DNA of 46,123 nt from Candidatus Schekmanbacteria bacterium (GCA_016188575.1 JACPHN010000123.1:1-46123), one strand, 5' to 3'; counted from the stretch's first letter, positions 29,692 to 43,933 are shown. Program-made: numbers and translations. The notes: generated from the letters alone by a model not told the origin.

Positions 29692-31551
29692 ATGGCGCGA
29701 AGCATGGCGGAACCGGCAGTGGACGAATACCCCCAGCAATCAGCTCGGCTCGTATGCACCGGCATGCTGGTGCTGCTCGGAGCAGCTCAGGAAACAGCCT
29801 TCCCGATCGCGCTTGTCGAAGGGCAAGAGCTGTGGATCGGTAGCGGCCCCGATGCGCACATTCGCCTTCGCGACCCGCTCGTGTCCCGGCGGCACGCCGT
29901 CTTGCGCGGTGCGGGCGTCTCCCTGATCCTCCGTGACGCCGGCAGCACGAATGGCACGAAGGTCAATGGGGTCCCGATCGGCCAACACGAGCTGCGAGCG
30001 GGGGACGTCATTACAGTTGGCGGATCCGCGGCGCTGCGGTGGCTGCCGGCCGCTCGCGGGCAGCACGGGGATCAGGCCACCACGGTGCTGCGGGGACAGG
30101 AATGGTCAGAGCCATTGCCCCCGGCGTTGCCGCTCGCGGCCCCGAGCCGTGGCGGCCGCTCGCTGGTCCACCCCGCGCTGCCATTCGCCCTGGGTGCCCT
30201 GTCCGTGCTCGTCGCCGCGGGTTTGATCTGGGCCGGCGTGACCTACTTGCGAAATGGAGGGTCCCTTTCGCGCGAGGCGAAGGCGTTCGCGGGTGCGACA
30301 GGCCGGGCCGAGGCGGGCGCGGCTCCAGGGAGGTCTACGGCGCCGGCGCCGGCGATCGCGGCCAACGAACGGACGGCCACCGCCACGCTCGCCGCCATCG
30401 CCGCCGCGCAGCTCGACTATCTGACCGTAGGCCCGACCGGCTGCTTCGCGACGAGCTTTGCGGCGCTCGCCGAGATTCCCTCGGCCGCCCGCTACCTCAG
30501 TGCCGAGGTGATCCGCGGCGAGCGCGCCGGCTACACGTTTCAGCTTGCACCCGGCAGCGACGGCTGCACGGAGTACCTCGCGCTGGCCGCGCCCACGCGA
30601 CCCGGCGAAACGGGACGCACCCGCTATGCCGTCGATCAGCACGAAAAGGTGCGCCTTGCCCAGCCGTTCCCCGATCTCGAGATTTTCGCCGAGATCCCGC
30701 CCGAGAAGCGAGACGTGAACGCGTCACTGGCGCGCTGTCAGGCCGGCACGCCGGAGGCCTGCACGGACGCGGGCAATCTCTTTACCCGCGGCCTGGGCGT
30801 GGCCATCGACGACATGGCGGCTCTGGACCTCTACGAAAAGGCGTGCGCTGGCAAGCACGGCAAGGGGTGCGCGCATGCCGGTATCGCCTACCTGTATGGC
30901 CAGGGGGCGGAGAAAAACCCAGACGCAGCGCGACCCTTGCTGTCTTTGGCGTGCGAGCTCGGTGATCTCATGAGCTGCGTGCGCCACGCCGAGCTGGTCG
31001 AGGGTTACCAGACCCCAACGGGCGACGCGCCGTTGGCGGCGAGCTCCTATGAGAAGGCGTGCACCGTGCAATTCGCGGGCGGCTGCCTCGGTCTGGGGGA
31101 TCTGTACGCGTCTGGACGGGGCGGCGTGCCGGAGGACCCGGCGCGCGCGCTGCGGGCTTATGAGCTGGCGTGCCAGGGCGGGTTTTACCAGGGATGCGGG
31201 ATCGCGGCGCACTTGCTCGAGGAGGGCCGCGGCGCTGTCGCGGACGTCGCCGCCGCGCAGCGTCTGTACGGCCTCGCTTGTGACGGCGGCGATGCGCCGT
31301 CCTGTGACCGCCTTGGCGAGGCTCACCGCGACGGGCGCTTCGGTCTGGCGCCGGACGATCGCGCCGCGCTGACGTTCTTCTTGCGCTCGTGTGAGCTGAT
31401 CGGACCCGCCGGCTGCAAGGCGGCGGGGGACATGCTCGGGGCCGGTCGCGGCGCGGCTCGCGACCCGGGAAAAGCCGGAGAGCTCTACGGTCGTGCCTGT
31501 CACTGGGGTGACGAGGGCGGCTGCGAAGCGGCGGCCGGCGAACCGCGGTAA
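29692..31551 (+). CDS. FHA domain - transmembrane - pilin-like - Sel1 repeat protein
   Basis: 619 residues with an unusual order. FHA domain ~30-118: LWIGSGPDAHIRLRDPLVSR with RHAVL, then GSTNGTKVNGVPI, holding the phosphothreonine-binding Ser, Arg, Asn residues. A single membrane helix follows at ~162-187 (LPFALGALSVLVAAGLIWAGV). Residues ~223-330 resemble the globular part of type IV pilin/pseudopilin-like domains (LAAIAAAQLDYLTVGPTGCF ... YTFQLAPGSDGCTEYLALAA). From ~345 to the end are Cys-paired Sel1/TPR-like repeats (ACTDAGNLFTRGLGVAIDD type) as in Hcp-like proteins. The FHA part would be cytoplasmic and the repeats outside, linking a Ser/Thr-kinase signal to an envelope scaffold. Start 29692 or 29704; no strong ribosome binding site is seen. 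Confidence 0.82.
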   Translation: MARSMAEPAVDEYPQQSARLVCTGMLVLLGAAQETAFPIALVEGQELWIGSGPDAHIRLRDPLVSRRHAVLRGAGVSLILRDAGSTNGTKVNGVPIGQHELRAGDVITVGGSAALRWLPAARGQHGDQATTVLRGQEWSEPLPPALPLAAPSRGGRSLVHPALPFALGALSVLVAAGLIWAGVTYLRNGGSLSREAKAFAGATGRAEAGAAPGRSTAPAPAIAANERTATATLAAIAAAQLDYLTVGPTGCFATSFAALAEIPSAARYLSAEVIRGERAGYTFQLAPGSDGCTEYLALAAPTRPGETGRTRYAVDQHEKVRLAQPFPDLEIFAEIPPEKRDVNASLARCQAGTPEACTDAGNLFTRGLGVAIDDMAALDLYEKACAGKHGKGCAHAGIAYLYGQGAEKNPDAARPLLSLACELGDLMSCVRHAELVEGYQTPTGDAPLAASSYEKACTVQFAGGCLGLGDLYASGRGGVPEDPARALRAYELACQGGFYQGCGIAAHLLEEGRGAVADVAAAQRLYGLACDGGDAPSCDRLGEAHRDGRFGLAPDDRAALTFFLRSCELIGPAGCKAAGDMLGAGRGAARDPGKAGELYGRACHWGDEGGCEAAAGEPR

Positions 31552-31658: not shown

Positions 31659-31720
31659 TTGACATCCTCTCCGGCCTGAAGGTCGAGAGATTCCTGGGAG
31701 CTAAGCCGCAACCGGCTTGA
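31659..31720 (-). ncRNA. right end and omega-RNA scaffold of the TnpB element
   Basis: On the minus strand the TnpB stop is followed by a hairpin CTCTC..GAGAG (31667-31689) with a CCTTCAGG core, then GAGGATGTCAA ending at 31659. This is the standard right-end layout of IS200/IS605-type elements, where the RNA made from the 3' end of tnpB forms the scaffold. The guide would be the flanking bases from 31658 downward (CATCAAGCTCGATGAAGTC). Confidence 0.6.
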
Positions 31721-32876
31721 TAGCTCCACAGGCAGACAGGGCTTGCCCAGCCCCCAAGACATTTTTCGCGGCGTTGAGATCGGCGTTCTCGCTGTGCCCG
31801 CATTGGACGCAGCGGAACACGGCCTGGCAGGGCCGGTTTTCCGCCGCGGTGTGACCGCAGGCGCTGCAGCGGCGCGACGTATCCCGGGGCGGTACCAGGA
31901 ACAGGGTGCCACCGAGCCACCGCAGCTTGTAGGCGAGCTGGCGCCGAAACTCGTACCAGCCTCGATCCAGGATCGCCTTGTTGAGGCCGCTCTTGGCCTT
32001 GACGTTGCGGCCGGGGTCTTCGGTCGTTCCCTTGGCCGAGGCGCTCATGTTCGCGACCTTCAGATCTTCGAGGTAAACCGTTGCGTGGGTTTTGCCGGTC
32101 CTCGTTGAGACCTTATGCAGGAAATCGTTTCGGGCGTCGGCGATGCGGATGTGCAGGCGGCTGATCCTGGCCTTCTGCTCTTTCCAGTTGGCCGAGCCCT
32201 TTTGCTTGCGAGCAAGACGGCGTTGTTCGAGCGCGAGCTTGTCTTCGAGCTTGCGAAAACTGTCGAGCGGCTCGACGACTTCGCCGCTGGAAAACGTGAC
32301 GAACCGGGCAATGCCCAAATCGCCACCGACTTCGGTGGTCGAAGGATGAATGGGCTCGGCAATCTCGCGCTCGGTCTGGATCGAGACGTACCAGTGTTCG
32401 CCGCGGCGAGAAACGGTGACGACCGCGGGCGTGCCCACCACGGGCCGACTATCGCGGTAGCGGACCCAGCCGATCTTGGGAAGGAACACGCGACCGCTCT
32501 CAAGCTTGAGCTGCTTCGGATCGGGATAGCGAAACGAGTCGAGGTCGCGGCCTTTTTTCTTGAACCGAGGCATCCGTTTCGCGCTGGATTTGGAGAGACC
32601 GTCGCGCAAGGCCCGGCTGAGATCGCGCAGCGTTTGCTGCTGCGTGTGGACAGGGCACTCCGCGAGAAAGGCGGTCGCCGGGTCGTGGCGCCAGACCGTG
32701 AGCAGGGCGCACAATTCCGCGTACCCGAGCAGCTTTTCGCCGGTACCGAGACGCTCGAGCTCAATGGCCAGCGCCCGGTTCCAGACGAAGCGTGCACAAC
32801 CAGCAATGCGACCCAATTGTTGCTCGATCGCTTGGTTGGTCTTCAGTCTGTACTTGAACGCCTTGCGGATTACCAT
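31701..32876 (-). CDS. tnpB: RNA-guided endonuclease TnpB (IS605 OrfB family)
   Basis: 391 residues from the ATG at 32876 (MVIRKAFKYRLKTNQAIEQQ); ATGs further upstream add only leader sequence. The RuvC-like catalytic residues are all present: Asp in GGDLGIARFVTFS, Glu in VYLEDLKVANMS and Asp in ENADLNAAKN. The zinc ribbon has CSACG and CVQCG. The N-terminal HTH and wedge region (ARFVWNRALA, LRDLSRAL) are normal. It therefore looks active as a transposon-encoded nuclease that cuts the empty donor site with its omega-RNA. Related to Cas12. No TnpA is nearby. Confidence 0.93.
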   Translation of the reverse strand: MVIRKAFKYRLKTNQAIEQQLGRIAGCARFVWNRALAIELERLGTGEKLLGYAELCALLTVWRHDPATAFLAECPVHTQQQTLRDLSRALRDGLSKSSAKRMPRFKKKGRDLDSFRYPDPKQLKLESGRVFLPKIGWVRYRDSRPVVGTPAVVTVSRRGEHWYVSIQTEREIAEPIHPSTTEVGGDLGIARFVTFSSGEVVEPLDSFRKLEDKLALEQRRLARKQKGSANWKEQKARISRLHIRIADARNDFLHKVSTRTGKTHATVYLEDLKVANMSASAKGTTEDPGRNVKAKSGLNKAILDRGWYEFRRQLAYKLRWLGGTLFLVPPRDTSRRCSACGHTAAENRPCQAVFRCVQCGHSENADLNAAKNVLGAGQALSACGAIKPVAA

Positions 32877-33111
32877 GGAGAACATATAGTACCATTGCAC
32901 GAACATTGCAAGTATCGTAGCGAGGCGATACAAACTCGCACAGGCGAGCAAGCCAACTACGAAGAAAAGAGCAAGAGTGCCTCACTCCGGTCTGAAGGCC
33001 GAAGCTTGCGGCGCGAGACCGGGTCACCCCCGCTCGGATGCCAGTCAATAGCGCCGCAGCAGCGAGGCTACCCCGTTCTTCGCGAGCCGCCGAAGCCCAG
33101 AAGCTGCTGGC

Positions 33112-33675
33112 CTAGAACAGACCAGGCAACAAGCGCTTCGTGCGCGCGCGATACGCCGCATAGTCCGGGCCGAATGCCCGCGCGAGCGCCGCTTCCTCCA
33201 CGGCGATGCGGTTGGCCAACGCCAGGCCGATCGGAACCAGTAGCACGCCGAGGCTCAGCCAGTTCGCGAAGTACACCCCGAGCCCAAGAAAGGCCACCAG
33301 CAGACCGGTATAGGAAGGGTGGCGTACGTGGCGGTAGACGCCGGTCTCGACGAGAGCGTGATCGCGCTGCACCGCCACATCCACGGTGAACATGCGGCCG
33401 AGCGACAAGATCGCTACCCAGCGAATCGCCATACCACCTCCGATCAGCACTGCGACGAGTAAGTCATGAAGCCAAGGGGGCAGAAGCAGCTCGGTCACCG
33501 CCACTTGCCGCATGAAGATGGCCATCACGACACTCGCGGCAATGACCATCCACAGCACGCGCAGAGAATTTCGGTCCGCGACCGCCGCCGTGCTCGGCCG
33601 CGCGCGCCGAAAAAACGCGAGCGCAATCTCGGAGGCCGGAAAGATCACTATCGCGATCCAGGCAACGGTCCGCAT
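33112..33675 (-). CDS. isoprenylcysteine carboxyl methyltransferase (ICMT)-like membrane protein
   Basis: 187 residues from the ATG at 33675; an upstream ATG at 33762 adds an Arg-rich stretch unlikely to be real. Four to five membrane helices are visible. The C-terminal ICMT/PEMT signature is clear: LVETGVYRHVRHPSYTGLLV, then a helix and EEAALARAFGPDYAAYRART. In such enzymes this region binds SAM at the membrane. Bacterial members methylate unknown small or membrane substrates. It lies just left of the TnpB element's boundary, with its stop at 33112. Confidence 0.85.
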   Translation of the reverse strand: MRTVAWIAIVIFPASEIALAFFRRARPSTAAVADRNSLRVLWMVIAASVVMAIFMRQVAVTELLLPPWLHDLLVAVLIGGGMAIRWVAILSLGRMFTVDVAVQRDHALVETGVYRHVRHPSYTGLLVAFLGLGVYFANWLSLGVLLVPIGLALANRIAVEEAALARAFGPDYAAYRARTKRLLPGLF

Positions 33676-34066
33676 CCACGCCTTCTCCACTCCAGGGCCC
33701 GACACCGCCGCCGCCGGGCTGCGTGATCCCCGGCGAGCGCGGCGACATGGCTTCGCCAGCACCCCATCATAGGATCACACGATCATGCGCGCACCTATCT
33801 TGAGGCGTCAAGCGCTGTAGCCCTTCCTGAATCCACCGCCTGGTCGACTGCAAGCTGCGCGGAGTGCGCATCACGCGGAATGCGCATCACCGAAACCCCC
33901 CATCTCACCTCCCCCTGCACCAGGCGGGAGGGACGGAGGGGGCACCGTCGCGCCTACGGTGAATGGGCGCTGGATTCCGGCAATCGCGGCGGCTGGCAAG
34001 CAACGCGCGCTGTTGTTACCATACACGGCAAATCCCTTCCGCTCACCCTGTTCGGGAGAAACCGCC
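33676..34066. other. intergenic region upstream of the envelope operon
   Basis: About 390 nt without a convincing gene. It contains a short direct repeat, TGCGCATCAC, near 33868 and 33883, and a GC-rich palindrome-like stretch round 33907-33943 (CACCTCCCCCTGCACC / GGCGGGAGGGACGGAGGGG). The promoter of the operon starting with sppA must lie here; I see no clear consensus. Confidence 0.4.
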
Positions 34067-35830
34067 GTGTCCATGGGCCTGATCTTACTACTCGTCGTCG
34101 CTGCCGGCGCGGCCTGGTACGTGTTCCGGGTTCGCGGCGTTCCCTACGTCGCCCAGGGCAGCGTCCTGGTGATCACGCTGGACGGGAAGGTCGTCGACCA
34201 TTCCGAGCGCCCCGGCTGGGTGCGCCGCCTCGCGACTGGCGCCGCCGAGACCAGTCTGCTGGACCTGCACGCAATGCTCGAAAAGGCCGCGTTCGACGAC
34301 CGCATTCGCGGCCTGCTGTTGATTGTCGACAACCCCGGCCTCGGCTGGGGCAAGGCGCAGGAGCTCGTGGAGATGCTCGACCGCTTCAAGGCGCGCGGGA
34401 AGGAGGTCGTGGCCTATCTCGAGAGCGGCGAGCTGCTCGACTACGCCATCGCCGCCGGCGCCGCCAAGATCGTCGTGCCGCAGTGCGGCTGGTTGAGCTT
34501 TCTGGGCCTGCGCGCCGAGGTCACATTCCTGAAGGACACGCTCGCCAAGGCCGGCGTCGAGGGCGATTTCGTGCGCTTCAAGGACTACAAGACGGCCGCG
34601 GACGCGCTGATGCGCTCGGAGATGAGCGAGGCGCATCGCGAGATGCTCGATGCCATCCTCGATTCGCACTTCGCGTCGTTGCGCGGGCACGTGGCGGCAC
34701 GGCGGCAACTGCCTCTCGCCGCCGTCGACGAGCTCATCGCGCGCGGCAGTTTCCTGCCCGAGGAAGCTCGGCAGCTCGGGCTCGTCGATCGCATCGCGTA
34801 TCTGCACGAGCTGCTCGAGGACTGGAACGATCTGGCCGGAGCAGAGCGCGCCCTGGGCAAGGAAGCGCGCGCCGGCCGTCGCTCCGAAGTGAGGACGGTC
34901 GCGGCCGATCGGTACGAGCGCGTTTCCGCGCGCTTCGCGGGGGTTCCGAAAGGGCCGACGGTGGTGGTCGTCGCGGTGCATGGGCCGATCGCAAGCGGCG
35001 AGAGCGGGCGCCCAACGCTGCTTGGGCGAGCTGTCGGCGCGCGGACGGTGGTGCGGGCGCTGCGGCGCGCCCGTCAGGACAGGCGCGTGCGCGGCATTGT
35101 GCTACGGGTCGATTCGCCGGGCGGTTCCGGTGTGGCTTCTGATCTCATCTGGGCCGAAGTGCGCCGTTGTCTGGAGGACAAGCCGGTCGTCGCGAGCATG
35201 TCCGACGTCGCCGGCAGCGGTGGCTACTATATCGCCATGGCGGCGAAGCGGATCGTCGCTCACTCCATGACGATCACCGGATCCATCGGCGTGATCGGCG
35301 GAAAGTTCGCCATCCCGGGAATGCTCGACCGCCTCGCCGCCAACAAGGTCGTGATTTCGCGCGGCCGCTACTCGCAGATGTATTCGAGCAGCCGGCGCTT
35401 TAGCGATGACGAGCGCGAGCTGGTGACGAGGACGATCCGGAGTTTCTACGACAGCTTCGTGCAAAAGGTCGGAGAATGCCGCTCCATGTCGGCGGAGGAT
35501 GTGGATGCGGTGGCTGGCGGGCGGGTGTGGACCGGCGAGCAGGCGTGTGCGCGGGGGCTGGTCGATGAGCGCGGAGGGCTGTCCAAAGCCCTGGACGTGC
35601 TCCGCGAGGAAATGAGGCTGCCGAGCGAAATGCCGCTGCGACTTGCGCCTTTTCCACCCCAGATGTCGCCGCTGCGCCGGCTCATCGCCGGCCAGCTCGG
35701 TCATGACGGCCTGCTGGCCGCACTCGGCCAGGCCGCATCCGAGGCGCGCTCGGCGATGGCGGTCTTTCGCGACGGTGAGGCGCTGGCGATCGCAGAGGCG
35801 GTGCCGGTTATCCCGGGTCGAACGCCATGA
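34067..35830 (+). CDS. sppA: signal peptide peptidase SppA, 67K-type (S49)
   Basis: Membrane-anchored serine protease that degrades cleaved signal peptides. About 587 residues with an N-terminal membrane helix and two S49 domains, as in the E. coli-type long enzyme. The catalytic Lys lies in the first domain (FKDYKTAADA, Lys ~175) and the Ser in the second (SDVAGSGGYYIA, Ser ~384). GSIGVIGGKFAIPGMLDRLA and SRRFSDDERELV follow as usual. The GTG at 34067 is preferred because GGGAGA lies 8 nt upstream; ATG 34073 is two codons later. It overlaps the next gene by 4 nt and begins a seven-gene run. Confidence 0.92.
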   Translation: MSMGLILLLVVAAGAAWYVFRVRGVPYVAQGSVLVITLDGKVVDHSERPGWVRRLATGAAETSLLDLHAMLEKAAFDDRIRGLLLIVDNPGLGWGKAQELVEMLDRFKARGKEVVAYLESGELLDYAIAAGAAKIVVPQCGWLSFLGLRAEVTFLKDTLAKAGVEGDFVRFKDYKTAADALMRSEMSEAHREMLDAILDSHFASLRGHVAARRQLPLAAVDELIARGSFLPEEARQLGLVDRIAYLHELLEDWNDLAGAERALGKEARAGRRSEVRTVAADRYERVSARFAGVPKGPTVVVVAVHGPIASGESGRPTLLGRAVGARTVVRALRRARQDRRVRGIVLRVDSPGGSGVASDLIWAEVRRCLEDKPVVASMSDVAGSGGYYIAMAAKRIVAHSMTITGSIGVIGGKFAIPGMLDRLAANKVVISRGRYSQMYSSSRRFSDDERELVTRTIRSFYDSFVQKVGECRSMSAEDVDAVAGGRVWTGEQACARGLVDERGGLSKALDVLREEMRLPSEMPLRLAPFPPQMSPLRRLIAGQLGHDGLLAALGQAASEARSAMAVFRDGEALAIAEAVPVIPGRTP

Positions 35831-37677
35831 CGTGGCGCCCCCGACGCCTTGCTGTCCTGCTGGGGCTGATCCTGGGGATCGCGCTCCCCGTGGCGGCCGT
35901 CGCGGATACCTACACGTGGCGCGACAAGGATGGGCGGCTGCGGGTCACGACGACAAAGCCGCCGGCAGGGGCAGAAACCTTGCGCACGACAGGTGCACCG
36001 GCGCCGGCCGGTAGCGCCGCCGAGTCGGACACGGTGGCGGGCGCGCCCGCGACTCCAAGGAGGGGTGCCTCTGCCGAAGCCGCCGACGGCCTGCGCTCGG
36101 CGCTGCGTTGGGGGCATACGCCACTCGCGGTTCGCGACCTCGCGCATCAGATTCAAACCCTCGAGTCGGGCAGCATGCTCGGGAATCGCGGCAGCGGGAG
36201 GGCCGGTGCACCCGCCGCGGCACCCTCGGCCGGTGCCGCCGCTACCGTTGCCGGGGGCGGCGCTGGCAATGAGCTGCTGGCGCGCGCCGACGCCGCACTG
36301 GCCGAAGCGCGCTACGACGCTGCCGCGGAACTGTACCACAAGGTCCTGAGCGCGACGCCGCAAGACGCCCGCGCCCTCGCGGGGGTCGCCCGTGCCGCCT
36401 GGTATCGGGGTGATCAGCCGGCGGCGGCAGCCGAGCTCCTCGGCCGCGCCCTGCAGTCGCTCCCGGACGATCCTGAGCTGGCATCGGCGCTCGGAAAAGC
36501 GCTGTTTCGGCTGCAGCGCTGGGACGACGCCGCCACAAACCTGCGGGCTGCGATAACCAGGCGCCCCGACTTCTGGACGCACAAGTTTTTGGGGCTCATT
36601 TCGCTGTACGGCGGCGAGCTCGACAAGGCGGACGAAGCGTTTCGCCAGGCGCTGTTCTACTACGGCGACGACTATGAGACGGTGGCGGCCCGCGCGGTTG
36701 TCAAGCAGCAGCGCGGCGCTGCTCCCGAGGCGCTTGACCTCTGGAGGAAAGCGATGCGCGTCAGACCGCGGGACGCGACCGCCTTCGAGGCGATCACGGC
36801 CTCGTTGCTCGGCGGCCGCCTCGGTGCCACCCCCGAGGAGGCGCTCGACCATTGCCGCGAACGCCTGGAGCTGCTTGATTACTCGCCGTTACCCACCTCC
36901 AGCGAGCTCGCCCCCGGGAGTCCGCCGTTCGCCTGCCAGCTCGCCGCGGCGCTCGGCGACATCGTCCGCGAGGACAAGGTCCAGCGCAAGTTCGCGACGC
37001 TCGATCGCGGCTACTTCGAGATTTCCTTCGACGGCGACAGCTCCGATGCCGTGGCGGCGGCCGCGAGCCGGATCCTTGGCGAGGCGCGGCGCGACATCGG
37101 CCAGGGTCTGGGCGGTGTCTTCCCCGATCAGCCCGTTCCCGTGGTGCTCTATACTCGCAACCAGTTCGAATACGTCTCGGGAGCCACCGAATATGTCGGC
37201 GCGCTATGGGATGGTCGGGCCATCCGGATCCCCGCCGGTGGCCTGACGGGTGAGACTCCCGAGCTGCGGGCCACGCTGTATCATGAGTACACGCATGCGC
37301 TGATCCAGCACCTCGTCGGCAACACAGCGGTGCCGCGCTGGGTCAATGAGGGCCTGGCGCAGTGGTTCGAGGGCGAGCGCATCGCGGATGTGCCCGGCAG
37401 CAAGAGGGCACAGCTCTGGCGCTACGGGCTCGACGATCCGATTCTGGGTAACGGCCACCTGGCCTGGAATGACCCGATCGTGTTCGCATCGGTCTACTTT
37501 CAGGCGCTCGCCGCGGCCGAGTATCTGCACGATCGCTATCGACCCGCCGACATCCAGCAGTTGCTGCTGCTCATGAAGGAAGGCCGGTCCATCGACTACG
37601 CCTGCGAAAAGGCCTTTGCGAAGTCGCCGGAACGTCTGGGCGAAAGCGTCCGCGAGTGGTGTTGCAAGGAGCAATGA
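35827..37677 (+). CDS. exported TPR protein with DUF4124 and MA-clan (gluzincin-like) metallopeptidase domain
   Basis: 616 residues. A signal peptide (~1-26) is followed by a DUF4124 segment (ADTYTWRDKDGRLRVTTTKP, ~26-45), a low-complexity linker, TPR-like helices (~135-335) and a C-terminal peptidase_MA-like domain. That domain has HEYTHALIQHLVG (HExxH, about residue 482) and WVNEGLAQWFEG with the downstream Glu expected as third zinc ligand, so the active site looks complete. Probably periplasmic, acting on misfolded or cell-envelope substrates together with the proteins encoded beside it. It starts by overlap with sppA and ends 12 nt before the cyclophilin gene. Confidence 0.85.
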   Translation: MTWRPRRLAVLLGLILGIALPVAAVADTYTWRDKDGRLRVTTTKPPAGAETLRTTGAPAPAGSAAESDTVAGAPATPRRGASAEAADGLRSALRWGHTPLAVRDLAHQIQTLESGSMLGNRGSGRAGAPAAAPSAGAAATVAGGGAGNELLARADAALAEARYDAAAELYHKVLSATPQDARALAGVARAAWYRGDQPAAAAELLGRALQSLPDDPELASALGKALFRLQRWDDAATNLRAAITRRPDFWTHKFLGLISLYGGELDKADEAFRQALFYYGDDYETVAARAVVKQQRGAAPEALDLWRKAMRVRPRDATAFEAITASLLGGRLGATPEEALDHCRERLELLDYSPLPTSSELAPGSPPFACQLAAALGDIVREDKVQRKFATLDRGYFEISFDGDSSDAVAAAASRILGEARRDIGQGLGGVFPDQPVPVVLYTRNQFEYVSGATEYVGALWDGRAIRIPAGGLTGETPELRATLYHEYTHALIQHLVGNTAVPRWVNEGLAQWFEGERIADVPGSKRAQLWRYGLDDPILGNGHLAWNDPIVFASVYFQALAAAEYLHDRYRPADIQQLLLLMKEGRSIDYACEKAFAKSPERLGESVREWCCKEQ

Positions 37678-37689
37678 CGGAGGGAAACC

Positions 37690-38289
37690 ATGATGCGGCG
37701 TGGACGCGACATCGCACGTGCCGGAATCTTCGCGCTTTGCCTGGCGGCGGGCGCCGGCTCCGCGGCGGACCCGGAGGAAAAGACGAATCCGCTCGTCGTG
37801 ATCGAGACGACCCGAGGGCGCATCACTGTGGAGCTGCTCGCGGCGCAGGCGCCGCAAACTGTGGCGAGCTTTCTGCGCTACGTGGACGAGAAGTTCTACG
37901 ACGGCACGGTCTTTCACCGCGTGCTCCCCGGTTCGATCGTGCAGGCCGGAGGCTTTACCGCCAAGCTCGAAGAGAAGCCGACGCACGAGTCGATCCCGTG
38001 CGAGTCACGACCCGGCGTGGGCAACAACAAGGGCACGCTGGCGATGGCACGAGGGGCGGACCCGGACAGCGCGACGAGCCAGTTCTTCATTAACCTGCGC
38101 GCCAATGCGCATCTCAACTTCAAGAGACCGACCCGAGACGGCCGCGGCTACACGGTGTTTGGTCGCGTGCTGGAGGGAATGGACGTCGTCGCTGCGATCG
38201 GAAGCATGACCACGCGCACCGTAGGCGAGCTCCGCGACGTTCCCGAGGAGCTCGTGGAAATCCGGTCGATGCGCCGAGCGGCTCCCTGA
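37690..38289 (+). CDS. exported cyclophilin-type peptidyl-prolyl isomerase
   Basis: 199 residues with a signal peptide (RAGIFALCLAAGAGSA). The cyclophilin fold motifs are present: FYDGTVFHRVLPGSIVQAGG (catalytic Arg in FHRV), GTLAMARGADPDSATSQFFI (Gln/Phe of the active site) and GYTVFGRVLEGMDVV. Ending ELVEIRSMRRAAP. GGAGGG stands 6 nt before the ATG. A periplasmic folding enzyme fits the operon's proteostasis theme. The next gene starts 16 nt after its stop. Confidence 0.92.
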   Translation: MMRRGRDIARAGIFALCLAAGAGSAADPEEKTNPLVVIETTRGRITVELLAAQAPQTVASFLRYVDEKFYDGTVFHRVLPGSIVQAGGFTAKLEEKPTHESIPCESRPGVGNNKGTLAMARGADPDSATSQFFINLRANAHLNFKRPTRDGRGYTVFGRVLEGMDVVAAIGSMTTRTVGELRDVPEELVEIRSMRRAAP

Positions 38290-38305
38290 GCGCGGCAGCC
38301 GAGGC

Positions 38306-40102
38306 ATGCACGGGGCGTCCGACTCAGGCCAGAATACCGAACGTAAAGCGCAACGGGACGCTTATCGCGGCGTCGTGCTCGTCTTTTTGGTGGCGGCCCT
38401 GCTGGGGGCGGCGGGCGCGGCGGCCGCCGGGGCAGCGCTCGTCAACCCCGTGCTCCTCGATGCGGCGGTGACCTTGGGCCTGGCGAGCGTGACGCTGCTC
38501 GGCGTCATCGAGACGCAGGCGGCGCGCGCCCGGGCCCGGGTCCCCGCGCAACCCGCTGCCGTGGCGCCCGGCGCGGTCCCGGCAGCGACGCGCAGACGCG
38601 CACTGCTCGCCGTCGCGCGCGCGTGGGTCTGGCGGCTGGCGAAGCCGTGTTGGGCGCACTTCGGGAGGGTCTGCGCCGGTGCATCGCTGCTCGCGACGCT
38701 GCGCATCTTGCTGCTGAGCCCGGGGGCCGCGCCGCCTTCGCCACCGGCGTCCGGCATCGTGGCGCTGGCCGCGGGTCTAGCTCTCGCGGCCGCGGCGGTT
38801 GCCGGCACCGTGGCGCGATACCTGGCGGCAGTCGAGCCGGCTCGTTTCCCCGAGGCGCCCGGGCTATGCCGCAGCGCGCGCGTGACCGCGTGGGTGCTGG
38901 TCGGGTGCGCGCTGGCCGTGGCGAGCGCGTGGGCGAGCCTGCCTACCGCCGTTCTGGTCACCCATGCCGCCGCCGTGCTGCTCAATCTTGCCATAAGCTA
39001 CGGCATGCTCACCGCGCCGATGCCGGCCCCAGGCGGCGCCCGCGTCTATCCCACCGACCTCACTGTCTTCGCCATGTTCGGGAGCCGCGCCAACGCGCTC
39101 GGCAGCGCTCTGGATGCGGCACGCAGCCTGCTCGGCATCGATCTCCGATCGACCTGGGCGCTCGCGGTGGTGCGCACCGGCTTCGAGCCGCTCCTCGCGG
39201 CGCTGGGATTGATCGCGTGGCTGAGCACTGCCGTAACCATTGTGGGTGTCGGCGAGCAGGCGCTGATCGAGCGGCTTGGCATTCCCGCCGGCGGACCCGC
39301 GCTTGGGCCCGGCTTGCACACACACGCGCCCTGGCCGATCGATCGCGTCATCCGGGTCCCGGTTCGCCGCGTCCAGACGCTGGCAGTGGGGCACCCGGAG
39401 GCGGCGGCGGAATCAGGACCCGAGGACGTCTTGTGGGCCAAGGAGCATGCGGCCGATGAGTACACCTTGCTCCTCGGCGATGGCCGCGATCTGGTCACGA
39501 TCGACGCCACGGTCCAGTTTCGCATCGCGGATGCTGCGGCGTGGACGTACCGCTGCAGGAACCCCGTCGAGGCGCTGCGGGCCGTCGCCTATCGCGCCGT
39601 GATGAAGGTGACCGTGAGTCGCACGCTCACCGCGGTGCTGTCCGAGAACGTGGCGACCCTGACCGCGGCGATGCGGGCCTCCGTGCAGGCGGACGCCGAT
39701 GCGCTGGGCCTCGGGGTGGAGATCGTCGCGTTCACGGTTGGCGGCATGCACCCGCCGGTGATGGTGGCGGCCGACTACCAGGCCGTGGTGTCGGCGGAGC
39801 TGGGCAAGGCGACGGCGGCCATCAATGCCGAAGCCTATCGGAAGGAGACGGTGCCCGCAGCCGAGGCTGCCGCGACCGCGGTCGTGAATGCGGCGCGAGG
39901 TGAGGCGGCCGGCGCGAAAGCCCAGGCGGCGGGGCAAGCCTGGGCCTTCCGCACGCTGGAAGCGGAATACCGCGCGGCACCGGGGGAATACCTGTTTCGC
40001 CGGCGGCTGGAAGCACTCGAAAGCGTGCTTCCGGGTCGGCGCTTCACGCTGGTCGATGCCCGCATCGAGCGGGACGGGGGTGAGCTATGGCTGATGCCGT
40101 AA
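38306..40102 (+). CDS. polytopic SPFH/Band 7 protein (HflK-like, large form)
   Basis: 598 residues. The first ~235 residues form about six hydrophobic segments (21-46, 48-70, 121-138, 150-172, 191-235) that ordinary HflK lacks. A further helix at ~286-315 leads into an SPFH domain: VGVGEQALIERLGIPAGGPA then GPGLHTHAPWPIDRVIRVPV, to about residue 490. A coiled-coil Ala/Glu-rich region (~495-575) follows. The 'PGLh...PWPid.v..v.v' segment is diagnostic for HflK-type proteins. It would be a membrane scaffold component forming hetero-oligomeric cages with the next two proteins. It overlaps the HflC-like gene by 16 nt. The ATG at 38306 is the first in-frame; the exact start is unsure. Confidence 0.82.
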   Translation: MHGASDSGQNTERKAQRDAYRGVVLVFLVAALLGAAGAAAAGAALVNPVLLDAAVTLGLASVTLLGVIETQAARARARVPAQPAAVAPGAVPAATRRRALLAVARAWVWRLAKPCWAHFGRVCAGASLLATLRILLLSPGAAPPSPPASGIVALAAGLALAAAAVAGTVARYLAAVEPARFPEAPGLCRSARVTAWVLVGCALAVASAWASLPTAVLVTHAAAVLLNLAISYGMLTAPMPAPGGARVYPTDLTVFAMFGSRANALGSALDAARSLLGIDLRSTWALAVVRTGFEPLLAALGLIAWLSTAVTIVGVGEQALIERLGIPAGGPALGPGLHTHAPWPIDRVIRVPVRRVQTLAVGHPEAAAESGPEDVLWAKEHAADEYTLLLGDGRDLVTIDATVQFRIADAAAWTYRCRNPVEALRAVAYRAVMKVTVSRTLTAVLSENVATLTAAMRASVQADADALGLGVEIVAFTVGGMHPPVMVAADYQAVVSAELGKATAAINAEAYRKETVPAAEAAATAVVNAARGEAAGAKAQAAGQAWAFRTLEAEYRAAPGEYLFRRRLEALESVLPGRRFTLVDARIERDGGELWLMP

Positions 40103-41001
40103 GGACGCACCGGTGGCTCCGCGCCGTGGTCGGCTCCCTGGCGCTTCTGGCAATTGCGTTTCACGCCACGGCCGTGGTGGTGCGCGAAGGTGAAGCGGTG
40201 TTGGTAACGCGCCTTGGCCGGCCGGTGGGGACGGCGACGGCGCCGGGCCTGCACTGGAAACTGCCGTGGCCGCTCGACGAGGCCGTGATGCTCGACATGC
40301 GGCGCCGCGTCTATGAGACCGGACACACCGAGATGCTGACGCAAGACAAGAAGAACATCATCGTGCGCACCTTCGTCGTCTGGCGGATCGGCGATCCGCT
40401 GGCCTTTACGCAGGCCATCGGCGCCGAGAGCGGAGCGCCCGGCGGGGGCGCGGAAGCGAAGCTCGACGGCTTGCTCACCAATGCGGCCATCTCGACTCTC
40501 GGCGGCCACCAGCTCGCGGCGCTGGTGTCCACGAGTGCCGCGGACCTGCAAGTCGACAAGATCGAGTCCGAGCTGCTCGCGGCGACGGCGCCGGTAGCGC
40601 TCGCCAGCTACGGAGTGGCGATCGAGCAGATTCGGCTGGAGCGCATCGCGTTGCCCGACGAGAACATCCGGGCGGTGTTCGAGCAAATGCGCGCCGAGCG
40701 TCGCCAGTTCGCGGCGAGATATCGCGCCGAGGGCGAGAAGGAGGCGAGCCGCATTCGCTCCGAGGCCGAGCTCGAGGTGGCGAAAATCCGCGCCCAGGGC
40801 CTCGAAGAGGAGGCGCGCGTGCGCGGGGAGTCGGCGGCGGAAGTGGCGAGAATCTATGCGGAGGCTCATCGGTTGGACCCGGAGCTGTACCGCTTCACGC
40901 GCTCGCTGGAATCCCTGGACAAACTGGTTACTCGCAGCACCTCGCTGATCTTGCGCACGGATTCCGAGCCGTTCTCGCTGCTCGAAAGCAAGGCGCGCTG
41001 A
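40087..41001 (+). CDS. HflC-like SPFH protein
   Basis: 304 residues: one membrane helix (~11-30), an SPFH domain (VVREGEAVLVTRLGRPVGTA, PGLHWKLPWPLDEAVMLDMR) and a long coiled coil (AEGEKEASRIRSEAELEVAK). The C-terminal ARIYAEAHRLDPELYRFTRS with LESL is the hallmark of HflC rather than HflK. In E. coli HflK and HflC enclose the FtsH protease; no ftsH is in this operon. It is embedded between two HflK-like genes, overlapping the first by 16 nt and the second by 1 nt (TGATG). Confidence 0.87.
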   Translation: MADAVRTHRWLRAVVGSLALLAIAFHATAVVVREGEAVLVTRLGRPVGTATAPGLHWKLPWPLDEAVMLDMRRRVYETGHTEMLTQDKKNIIVRTFVVWRIGDPLAFTQAIGAESGAPGGGAEAKLDGLLTNAAISTLGGHQLAALVSTSAADLQVDKIESELLAATAPVALASYGVAIEQIRLERIALPDENIRAVFEQMRAERRQFAARYRAEGEKEASRIRSEAELEVAKIRAQGLEEEARVRGESAAEVARIYAEAHRLDPELYRFTRSLESLDKLVTRSTSLILRTDSEPFSLLESKAR

Positions 41002-42029
41002 TGAGGCGACGGCGCGGGAATCCGTCGGAGCTCGGCCGGCTGGCGGCACCGCTATTGCGCGGCGCCGACGCCGCCTGGCAACGGATGTCCTGGTGGATCG
41101 CCCTGCTGGCGGCGCTCTATGCGGTCTCGGGGGTCACCGTGGTGGCGCCAGACGAGGTTGCGGTCGTGCTTCGCTGGGGCCGACTGGTCGGCGCGTCGCG
41201 GGCCGCGCAGGAGCACGGCCCGGGCTTGCTGCTGGCGCTTCCGGCGCCCATCGATCAGGTCGTGCGCGTCAAGGTCAAGCGAATCCGGGAGCTGGCGATC
41301 ACCACCCTGGCGAGCGGCGGCGACCGCGGCGGCGGCGGCGGATACGCCTTGACTGGCGACTTCAATGTCGTTCACGTCACCATGGTGGCGCGCTACAAGG
41401 TGCGCGAAATCGGCGATTTCATTCGCTACGCAAAACGCGTCGAGGACGCGCTTCGCGTCGAGGTCACCGCGGCGATGGTGCGCTCGATCGGCGAGCTCGC
41501 GGTGGACCACGTGCTGTCGGATGGGCGCAAGGCGCTCATTCAGACGGCGACGCGGCGCGCCCAGGCCGGGCTCGACGCGGCCCGCGCCGGAATCGAGATC
41601 GTGGCGCTGGAGCTTACCGCGTTGGCGCCGCCAACGCCGCTGGCGCGGGACTTCGACGCGGTGCAGAGCGCCTATATCGGCGCGGAGACCAGGAAGAAGG
41701 AGGCGGAGGCGTTCGCCCAGGAGGCGTTGCCCAAGTCCAGAGCGGCGGCCAATGCCGCGTTACAGGCGGCGCGCGCCGATGCTCGCACGGCGCTGGCGCG
41801 CGCGCGAGGAGACGCGGCGGCCTTCCTCGCGCTCAGCCGCGAGTATCGTGCCAACCCGGCGGTGGTCGGCGAGCGGCTGTACCGCGACGCCGTCGAGCGG
41901 GCCATTGGCGGCGTGCAGAAGGTCCGCTGGGTGCCGCCGCCGGCCGGGGATCGATACCAGGGGTTGCGCATTTCAGTGGCGCCGCCGGATGCCGGGGCAC
42001 CTGTGTCGCCGGCTGGGGCCAATCCGTGA
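41001..42029 (+). CDS. second HflK-like SPFH protein
   Basis: 342 residues with a membrane helix at ~31-48 and an SPFH domain starting VAPDEVAVVLRWGRLVGASR. A Gly-rich loop (ASGGDRGGGGGYALTGDFNV) stands where HflK proteins carry the 'm.T.D.niv' segment: here LTGDFNVVHVTMVARYKV. The rest has VEDALRVEVTAAMVRSIGEL and a coiled coil (EAEAFAQEALPKSRAAANAA) like HflK C-terminal parts. So the operon has three SPFH proteins of three different types, not recent duplicates. It overlaps the ATPase gene by 4 nt (GTGA). Confidence 0.85.
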   Translation: MRRRRGNPSELGRLAAPLLRGADAAWQRMSWWIALLAALYAVSGVTVVAPDEVAVVLRWGRLVGASRAAQEHGPGLLLALPAPIDQVVRVKVKRIRELAITTLASGGDRGGGGGYALTGDFNVVHVTMVARYKVREIGDFIRYAKRVEDALRVEVTAAMVRSIGELAVDHVLSDGRKALIQTATRRAQAGLDAARAGIEIVALELTALAPPTPLARDFDAVQSAYIGAETRKKEAEAFAQEALPKSRAAANAALQAARADARTALARARGDAAAFLALSREYRANPAVVGERLYRDAVERAIGGVQKVRWVPPPAGDRYQGLRISVAPPDAGAPVSPAGANP

Positions 42030-43933
42030 CGGCGCGCGCGCCGGCGCCGGGAGCGCTCGCGCCCGAGGAACGCAGGCGGATCACCGTCCGCCTGGGTGCG
42101 GGCCTGGCAGGCGCCGGGATGCTCGGCCTGGGCGCTCTGCTGATCCGCTGGTCCCCCGATCAGTGGCAGGTTGGCGAGCTGTGCCGCGCGGTCGCGGCCG
42201 CGGTGGTGGCGGTTCCGACGCTCGTTTCGGGCGTGCGCGGCATGCTAACGGCCGATCCGCGGCGCGCCGCGGATCAGCTCGTGGCCATCGCTGTTTGCTC
42301 CGCCGCCGCCAGTGGTGACTTCGTCACCGCCACGCTGATCCCGCTTTTCCTGGAGCTGGGCCGGCTCTTCGAGGAGCGCAGCTCCCTGGGTGCGCGCGCC
42401 GCGATCGACGGCATCCGCGCCCTCGCCGCACGGCAGGCCGTGCGCTGGCGAGAGGGCCGCGAGGAACGCGTCGATCCCGCCACCTTGCACCCGGGAGAGG
42501 TCATTCTGGTGCGGCCGGGAGAACGAATCGCGGTCGACGGCACCGTCCTGGAAGGTCGCAGCGCCGTGGACCAGTCGGCGATCACGGGGGAATCCCGCCA
42601 CGACGATGTCGGGCCGGGAAGCCCGGTATACGCCGGCGCGGTGGCGCTCGACGGCCTGCTGCGCATCGAAGCACGAGGCGCGGGAGTGGACACGGTGCTC
42701 GGGCGGGTCGTCTCGCTGCTCGCCGAGGTCGAACGGACGACCGTCCCCGTCTTGCGACTGTTCGAGCGGCGGGCCGGGGCGTGGCTGCCGCTCGTGCTCA
42801 CGGTGGCGGCAACGACGCTGTTCTTTACGGAGAACCTGGCGCGGGCGGTCGCGGTGCTGGTCGTCGCGACCCCGACCGCGCTGGTCGTCGCCGGGCCGGC
42901 GGCGGTCGTGGCGGCCATGACGGTGGCGACGCGCCTGCGCATCCTGATCAAGAGCGCCGATTTTCTCGAGCGCGCGGCGGAGGTCGAGACGCTGATCCTC
43001 GACAAAACGGGGACGGTTACGGTCGGCGCGCCGGCGGTAGCGCTGCTCGAGCCCGGCGACGGAGTGACGGCCGATCGCTTGCTGGCCGTCGGCGCCACGC
43101 TCGGCTTCGGCTCGCTTCACCCGGTCAGCCGGGCGGTGGTGGCGGCAGCGCGGCAACGCGGCATCGCCGTCGTGCCGCCGGTAGACCTGGCCGAGCATCC
43201 GGGGCTTGGCCTCGTGGCGATGGTCGAGGGCGAGCGCGCGGCGCTGGGTCGCGCGCCCTTCCTTCGCGACCTCGGCGTGCCGATGCCCGCCAACGGTAGT
43301 GACGACGCCACCGGCGGCGAAGTCTGGGTGGCGCTCGGCGAGCGCTGCCTCGGGCGCATCGTCTGGCGCGACCAGCCGCGTCCTGAAGCGCGCGACGCGC
43401 TGCAGGAGATGCGCGCTCTTGGCATCGACCGGCTGGTACTGTTGACCGGTGACCGGGAAGGCGTCGCGCGCGCCATCGGGGAGGCGCTGGGGATGGACGC
43501 GATCGTCGCCGACGTCTTGCCGGCGCAGAAGCTCGAGCTCGTGCGCGCGGAGCAGGCCGCGGGACGACTGGTCATGATGGTGGGGGACGGTGTCAACGAC
43601 GCCCTTGCCCTCGGCGGCGCCGATGTCGGGGTAGCGATCGGCGCCGAGCTCAACGAAGTCGCGCTCGGAGGAGCGGACGTCGCGCTTCTCGGCGCTGACC
43701 TCGGGCGCCTGCCCCAGCTTATCGAGCTGGCGGAAACCACCCGTCGCGTCATCGGTCAAAACGTCTGGCTGGCTTTCTGCCTGTCGCTGGCGCTGATCGG
43801 TCTGGCGGCGGCGGGGGTGCTCGATCCGCTCACCGGAGCCCTGGCACAGAGCCTCGCCGTCGGCGCGGTCGTCGTCAACAGCGCTCGCGTGCTGCGCTAC
43901 GGTGCCGAGCGGGACGGACCCGGCCCGCGGTGA
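42026..43933 (+). CDS. P1B-like P-type ATPase without the cysteine metal motif
   Basis: 635 residues from GTG at 42026, which overlaps the previous stop. The catalytic core is complete: TGES at 187-190, phosphorylated Asp326 in DKTGTVTVG, HP at 365-366 (the P1B-type SLHP), TGDRE, and GDGVND at 520-525. No N-terminal HMA or His-rich metal domain exists. The membrane motif that is CPC, SPC or APC in heavy-metal pumps reads TPT at 282-284 (VVATPTALVVAG), and the last helices lack the usual metal ligand (QSLAVGAVVVNSARVLR). So the fold is of a metal pump, but both transport-site signatures are altered. Substrate unknown. Last gene of the envelope operon. Confidence 0.87.
   Translation: MTARAPAPGALAPEERRRITVRLGAGLAGAGMLGLGALLIRWSPDQWQVGELCRAVAAAVVAVPTLVSGVRGMLTADPRRAADQLVAIAVCSAAASGDFVTATLIPLFLELGRLFEERSSLGARAAIDGIRALAARQAVRWREGREERVDPATLHPGEVILVRPGERIAVDGTVLEGRSAVDQSAITGESRHDDVGPGSPVYAGAVALDGLLRIEARGAGVDTVLGRVVSLLAEVERTTVPVLRLFERRAGAWLPLVLTVAATTLFFTENLARAVAVLVVATPTALVVAGPAAVVAAMTVATRLRILIKSADFLERAAEVETLILDKTGTVTVGAPAVALLEPGDGVTADRLLAVGATLGFGSLHPVSRAVVAAARQRGIAVVPPVDLAEHPGLGLVAMVEGERAALGRAPFLRDLGVPMPANGSDDATGGEVWVALGERCLGRIVWRDQPRPEARDALQEMRALGIDRLVLLTGDREGVARAIGEALGMDAIVADVLPAQKLELVRAEQAAGRLVMMVGDGVNDALALGGADVGVAIGAELNEVALGGADVALLGADLGRLPQLIELAETTRRVIGQNVWLAFCLSLALIGLAAAGVLDPLTGALAQSLAVGAVVVNSARVLRYGAERDGPGPR

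Follow-up and report, generated by a model that had tools for sequence, protein, structure and literature searches.

A Trio of HflK/HflC-Like SPFH Proteins and a P1B ATPase in a Candidatus Schekmanbacteria Bacterium: A Divergent Variant of the hmtA-Type Operon

Gene Organization of the Locus

The locus described here is a run of seven co-directional open reading frames at positions 34067–43933 (+ strand) of a 46,123-nucleotide stretch of DNA from a Candidatus Schekmanbacteria bacterium (GCA_016188575.1 JACPHN010000123.1:1-46123), the whole of which is referred to as the window. Three SPFH proteins and a P1B-type ATPase make up what we call the core, and the three genes before them are treated as accessory. 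The positions and protein families were confirmed from the reading frames and from Pfam/NCBIfam matches, in agreement with a preliminary description of the same DNA. The genes are:

34067–35830, +, SppA-type S49 signal peptide peptidase, 587 amino acids (accessory)
35827–37677, +, exported TPR protein with an HEYTH metallopeptidase motif, 616 amino acids (accessory)
37690–38289, +, exported cyclophilin, 199 amino acids (accessory)
38306–40102, +, SPFH1, 598 amino acids (core)
40087–41001, +, SPFH2, HflC-like, 304 amino acids (core)
41001–42029, +, SPFH3, HflK-like, 342 amino acids (core)
42026–43933, +, P1B-type ATPase, 635 amino acids counted from a GTG start (core)

The core genes all overlap, SPFH1 and SPFH2 by 16 nucleotides, SPFH2 and SPFH3 by 1, and SPFH3 and the ATPase by 4, the GTG start at 42026 lying within the end of SPFH3 and overlapping its stop. 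Among the accessory genes, SppA and the TPR peptidase overlap by 4 nucleotides (35827–35830); 12 nucleotides separate the TPR peptidase from the cyclophilin, and 16 separate the cyclophilin from SPFH1.

A Conserved Four-Gene Core

The core is a widely conserved module. An alignment of the window SPFH1 with four plasmid relatives, searched against 84,980 species genomes, gave 189 relatives, and the loci of 80 of these were read. SPFH1, SPFH2, SPFH3 and the ATPase are complete and in the order of the window in 73 of the 80, mostly with overlaps of 4 nucleotides; the remaining seven are truncated by contig ends. The association is far beyond chance and the order is near-invariant across phyla, which bears out the earlier proposal that the SPFH trio and the P-type ATPase belong together. 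The hosts include many Pseudomonas, Burkholderiaceae, Acetobacteraceae, Rhizobium, Enterobacterales and Planctomycetota, and the same operon is found on four plasmids. Within the phylum to which planctomycete locus L117 belongs, a search gave strong ATPase matches in 40 of 149 genomes. A second set of 40 regions, drawn from that search and others, contains all four families in 27 cases. In several of these regions, with or without the full set, the ATPase gene immediately precedes the trio; some others are truncated or have P1B ATPases unlinked to the trio. In same-phylum relatives of the window, the trio is present without the ATPase. One ATPase-type locus (L212:6719-8266) has a gene for a 515-residue permease-like protein overlapping the SPFH1 start, PF03773-like by eye.

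By gene order, the core corresponds to PA2439–PA2435 of the Zur-regulated hmtA cluster of Pseudomonas aeruginosa, PA2434–PA2439 (PMC4542158, PMC8531726, PMC11761036), and the window operon is of the HmtA type in this sense. The P. aeruginosa genes are described as HflK (PA2439), HflC (PA2438), HflC family (PA2437) and HmtA (PA2435); the cluster is upregulated in a znuA mutant, and its predicted Zur site is weak (PMC4542158). Zur binds the PA2439 promoter (PMC8531726). The cluster's proteins tend upward in zinc depletion, significantly so for PA2438 (PMC11761036), and import of zinc and copper has been reported for HmtA (PMC8456098, PMC10393844). In PA14, the trio has been named PaFlo5-6-7, with slight phenotypes in single and multiple mutants (PMC13086221). 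From the descriptions in two papers, we read PA14_33070, PA14_33080 and PA14_33110 as PA2439, PA2438 and PA2437. Zur-box-like sites lie ahead of SPFH1 in many Pseudomonas loci. The locus had been put forward as a candidate for an undescribed system; the operon type is already known as the hmtA cluster, and the window holds a diverged version of it, with additional genes and an atypical ATPase.

The P1B ATPase Has Lost Both Cysteines of Its CPC Site

The ATPase is assigned to the heavy-metal P1B type by score (TIGR01525, 448.6 bits against a cut-off of 346) and by intact TGES, DKTGT and HP motifs. It has no HMA domain. Two sites within it are:

42869–42877, +, TPT replacing the CPC metal-binding motif of the sixth transmembrane helix (TM6), from an alignment of 117 ATPases
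43001–43015, +, DKTGT phosphorylation motif, intact

The TPT had been noticed before, and it is real both by codons and by alignment; ACC CCG ACC is several bases from TGC CCG TGC. Among the 117 aligned ATPases, the site reads CPC in 98, CPS in 8, CPT in 4, CPG in 3, and VPC, TPC and CPL once each. The window ATPase alone has no Cys there. Some triads first picked up by regular expression were discarded as false (SPQ, DPQ, NPQ, EPT), and a TPT in the L117 ATPase was corrected to CPS by the alignment. Since CPS, CPT, CPG, VPC, TPC and CPL all occur inside the SPFH-linked clade, CPC is not defining for the operon type. In TM8, the LHN reads AQS in the window protein.

In a tree of 36 rows, the window ATPase falls within the SPFH-linked set (support 100/99) on a long branch, where its sister group is the Pseudomonadota rows (98/93); planctomycete L117, then ZntA, then CopA-like pumps lie outside. 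Some SPFH-linked ATPases have His-rich N-termini, which fits a metal role. Because the catalytic motifs of the window protein are intact, an altered ion seems more likely than a dead enzyme. The ion itself is uncertain, and since both CPC cysteines are replaced, we do not claim zinc or copper import for this copy.

SPFH1 Begins with a Degenerate CDF Domain

SPFH1 consists of a degenerate CDF-like six-helix domain, a seventh helix, an HflK-like SPFH domain and a coil. Its two domains map as follows:

38330–39031, +, CDF/ZnT-like membrane domain, residues 9–242 (YiiP 8f6k match; ligand columns)
39239–39835, +, SPFH (Band_7) domain (PF01145, E 3.3e-16)

The N-terminal membrane part is a CDF/ZnT zinc-transporter domain in degenerate form. 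In other genomes, of the same phylum and beyond, SPFH1 opens with a Pfam Cation_efflux domain; in the ATPase-linked SPFH1s, the window's and 16 others, Pfam alone detects no CDF domain. Since Pfam is blind to the relationship, profile–profile and structure comparisons were needed. In hhalign, a profile of the N-regions from the 17 ATPase-linked proteins matched the CDF-type profile over its full length, at a probability of 94% and E 1e-7; for a planctomycete-like subset, the values were 97% and E 2.8e-10, while the reversed and ATPase-membrane controls gave E 0.4–0.6. An AlphaFold model of SPFH1 was built from ATPase-linked SPFH1s alone, with a mean predicted local distance difference test score (pLDDT) of 75, and shows six long helices over residues 4–236. 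Its residues 9–242 matched YiiP 8f6k with Z 15.9 and a root-mean-square deviation of 4.1 over 196 aligned residues (VIA-align). Many ZnT proteins follow YiiP in the ranking, and the remainder of the model matches HflK. Foldseek alone gave ZnT matches no better than E 0.3–0.6. A single-sequence AlphaFold prediction of the N-terminal domain was poor (pLDDT 54) and was not used.

The four CDF ligand columns (HxxxD, in TM2 and TM5) read H, D, H, D in all six CDF-type SPFH1s. The set is complete in none of the 17 ATPase-linked SPFH1s, several of which retain the first His, and the window protein has L, S, S and T. Because these metal ligands are lost, the N-terminal domain is judged from its residues to be a CDF relative and not a working CDF transporter. 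In the planctomycete SPFH1 (L117:8398-10392), the SPFH region contains a long His-rich insert (HSHGHSHRHSHGHSHG...), which fits a metal role and is possibly a periplasmic metal-binding loop.

SPFH Trios with Interchangeable Transporters

The CDF-type profile, used as a query, recovered nine further loci with a CDF-type SPFH1, usually followed by SPFH2 and SPFH3. No ATPase match was found near them, with several of the 15 loci truncated on one side. Across L033-L039 and L298-L306, the CDF-SPFH fusions head SPFH trios, have intact HxxxD ligands and are without an ATPase match in the vicinity. Eight other long SPFH1s are without a CDF domain, and an ArsP_1 permease domain was present in all seven that were scanned. 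The ArsP_1-bearing first SPFH proteins (L308-L315, e.g., L308:5089-7242) have a CSCG motif, which may mark a metalloid or thiol-linked variant of the module. A third kind of fusion, a 1040-residue P1B ATPase-SPFH protein, is encoded at L307:6491-9613 (genome G425), where SPFH2 and SPFH3 come next, and the fusion recurs in four further genomes (G445, G446, G447, G448) at 56–71% identity. In total, it occurs in five genomes and two families, with one copy cut by a contig end.

These observations bear on a condition that the preliminary description set against its own proposal, namely that homologues of the trio might be found without the ATPase in most genomes. The outcome is mixed: such trios do exist, but in them SPFH1 itself bears a transporter domain. 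The pattern suggests that the conserved entity is an SPFH trio with one interchangeable metal(loid) transporter, fused or adjacent. A physical link between SPFH proteins and transporter is likely because P1B ATPase-SPFH, CDF-SPFH and ArsP-SPFH gene fusions all occur, and the presence of one transporter per trio is the strongest evidence for it in this analysis. In the open-access literature, which leaves most subscription papers outside, we found no description of CDF-SPFH systems or of SPFH/P-ATPase systems beyond the hmtA cluster. To that extent, the CDF relic of SPFH1 and the transporter-swapping SPFH family are new here.

Relationship to HflK, HflC and FtsH

By Pfam/NCBIfam, all three SPFH proteins belong to Band_7; SPFH1 and SPFH3 resemble HflK, and SPFH2 resembles HflC. 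SPFH2 scores 152.5 bits with TIGR01932 (cut-off 134.4). SPFH3 scores 140.7 bits with TIGR01933, slightly below the cut-off of 159.4, and matches HflK structures. In the SPFH2 tree, the window groups with SPFH2 of the ATPase-linked loci L209, L221, L222 and L210 (97/89), and HflC from canonical two-gene hflKC loci sits on a branch of its own (100/100), with the window outside it. The placements of the ATPase and SPFH2 together put the window operon in the SPFH-ATPase group and not with the canonical hflKC pair. In two genomes, a trio of the transporter type occurs side by side with a canonical hflKC pair. The expectation that hflK and hflC normally sit beside ftsH does not hold generally, as they are usually with hfq/hflX or alone (PMC13086221). 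In the window's assembly, FtsH is encoded on another contig, with none near the trio, and the SPFH1 search found no other HflK-like protein. Genome G000 has 16 Band_7 places; among them is a stomatin-type pair on contig C206, preceded by a putative NfeD gene, and no canonical hflKC pair was observed in this genome.

Accessory Genes and Surroundings

SppA scores 243.9 bits with TIGR00706, above the cut-off. It matches the E. coli SppA structure 3bez and keeps the lysine region, DYK(T/S)A, and the serine region, SGGYYI. Pfam also gives it a weak NfeD1b_N match. The second protein has TPR and DUF4124 by Pfam, and HEYTH is seen in its translation. The cyclophilin scores 142.6 bits with PF00160, and its translated N-terminus is signal-peptide-like. 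Among all loci examined, with L209 and L221 as the nearest relatives, only the window has these three genes beside the core, and the seven-gene extent was observed in this genome alone. They are probably co-transcribed envelope quality-control partners gained in this lineage.

The run is bounded upstream by a divergent ICMT-like gene (33112–33762). A scan found no forward promoter-like site before SppA, and terminator predictions were at chance level; the region is GC-rich, and neither kind of scan was informative in it. Close upstream, a TnpB/OrfB_IS605-type protein with a Cas12f1-like TNB domain is encoded at 31701–32951 (−), and beyond it, at 29692–31551 (+), a 619-residue FHA and Sel1-repeat membrane protein.

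Proposed Mechanism and Alternatives

We think it more likely than not that the core is an HmtA-type SPFH module coupled to its transporter. SPFH1–3 would form a hetero-oligomer resembling HflK/C at the periplasmic surface of the inner membrane. The six CDF helices would end in the cytoplasm, and the seventh helix, residues 284–307, would place the SPFH domain in the periplasm, the arrangement of HflK. SPFH1 would anchor the assembly through its CDF-derived membrane domain without CDF metal ligands. The working pump would be the P1B ATPase, docked in or beside the assembly, most likely via the dead CDF domain, and by analogy with HmtA, it may move a cation inward from the SPFH-enclosed chamber, both direction and ion being presumptive here. 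The idea of a cage around the transporter is supported, not proven, by the transporter-coupled trios. More tentatively, and at somewhat less than an even chance, we propose as one joint claim that there is a general module of an SPFH trio housing one swappable metal(loid) transporter, and that the window is a divergent form with both CPC cysteines lost, its pump probably changed in ion and envelope proteases and a foldase recruited.

Several points weigh against the core being a transporter-coupled module of the HmtA type. The window ATPase has lost CPC, and by a CPC criterion for HmtA itself, its TPT would place it outside. The HmtA identification was made from gene order, annotation and named Pseudomonas relatives, with PAO1 HmtA unaligned. 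No Zur-box-like site was found upstream of the window genes with a box of the Pseudomonas type, which may differ in this phylum. Within P. aeruginosa, one study did not see zinc repression of hmtA mRNA (PMC8531726), the import direction of HmtA comes from one study, for which a review asks for confirmation (PMC10393844), and the trio mutant is nearly without phenotype, with biofilm ~20% lower (PMC13086221). SPFH proteins are not known from any experiment to bind HmtA.

The weak phenotypes of the trio deletion (PMC13086221) would also suit a shared operon that serves co-regulation in metal starvation, with the trio organizing or protecting the membrane and the ATPase importing metal alone. HmtA overexpressed alone does raise intracellular zinc and copper, according to Lewinson 2009 as cited in PMC10393844. 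Near-invariant gene order across phyla and the three kinds of transporter fusion point instead to physical coupling, and we regard mere co-regulation as unlikely, though worth keeping in mind. We give decidedly less credence to the trio replacing HflK/HflC as the FtsH regulator in this genome, with the ATPase merely co-transcribed. The SPFH2 score above the HflC cut-off, the lack of a second HflK-like protein by the SPFH1 search and the presence of FtsH on another contig speak for it; the separate branch of canonical HflC, the two genomes in which both kinds of locus coexist and the tie of SPFH1 to transporters by fusions speak against it.

The preliminary description treated all seven genes as one system. 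In its strongest form, this would be a quality-control system of the envelope in which the peptidases receive an ion from the ATPase. The genes are tightly spaced, a matter of proximity in one genome; SPFH proteins elsewhere are encoded with ClpP-class NfeD proteases (PMC13086221), and there is the weak NfeD1b_N match of SppA. The absence of the accessory genes from every other core locus examined tells against it, and we think it very improbable.

If the core is a transporter-coupled module, it offers a concrete client, the transporter, in a field where the role of most bacterial SPFH proteins is an open question. The unusual reported importer HmtA gains a structural context, with a hint at the reason for finding three HflK/C-like genes within a Zur regulon. 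The pattern suggests a little-studied machine in which a scaffold surrounds a metal transporter.

Comparison with Known Systems

The CDF/ZnT transporters, represented by YiiP, share the six-helix membrane fold of SPFH1 residues 9–242; SPFH1 differs in being without the metal ligands and the cytoplasmic C-terminal domain, and an SPFH domain follows instead. The HflK–HflC complex is similar in that SPFH2 is HflC-like, SPFH1 and SPFH3 are HflK-like, and HflK/C are the best structural matches to the SPFH parts. The window system differs from it in having three subunits, an extra CDF-like membrane domain, an ATPase partner and no FtsH nearby. Like the NfeD–SPFH operons (e.g., QmcA–YbbJ and PH1510–PH1511), the window encodes SPFH proteins with a membrane or protease partner, but it is without NfeD, the partners are a P1B ATPase and SppA, and the SPFH proteins are HflK/C-like. 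In the hmtA cluster, PA2434–PA2439, as in the window, three HflK/HflC-like genes precede a P1B ATPase, all in one orientation, and relatives of the cluster were read in Pseudomonas loci. Compared with that cluster, the window is without PA2436, a detected Zur-box-like site or a His-rich ATPase N-terminus, has TPT in place of CPC, and carries three extra upstream genes in a different phylum.

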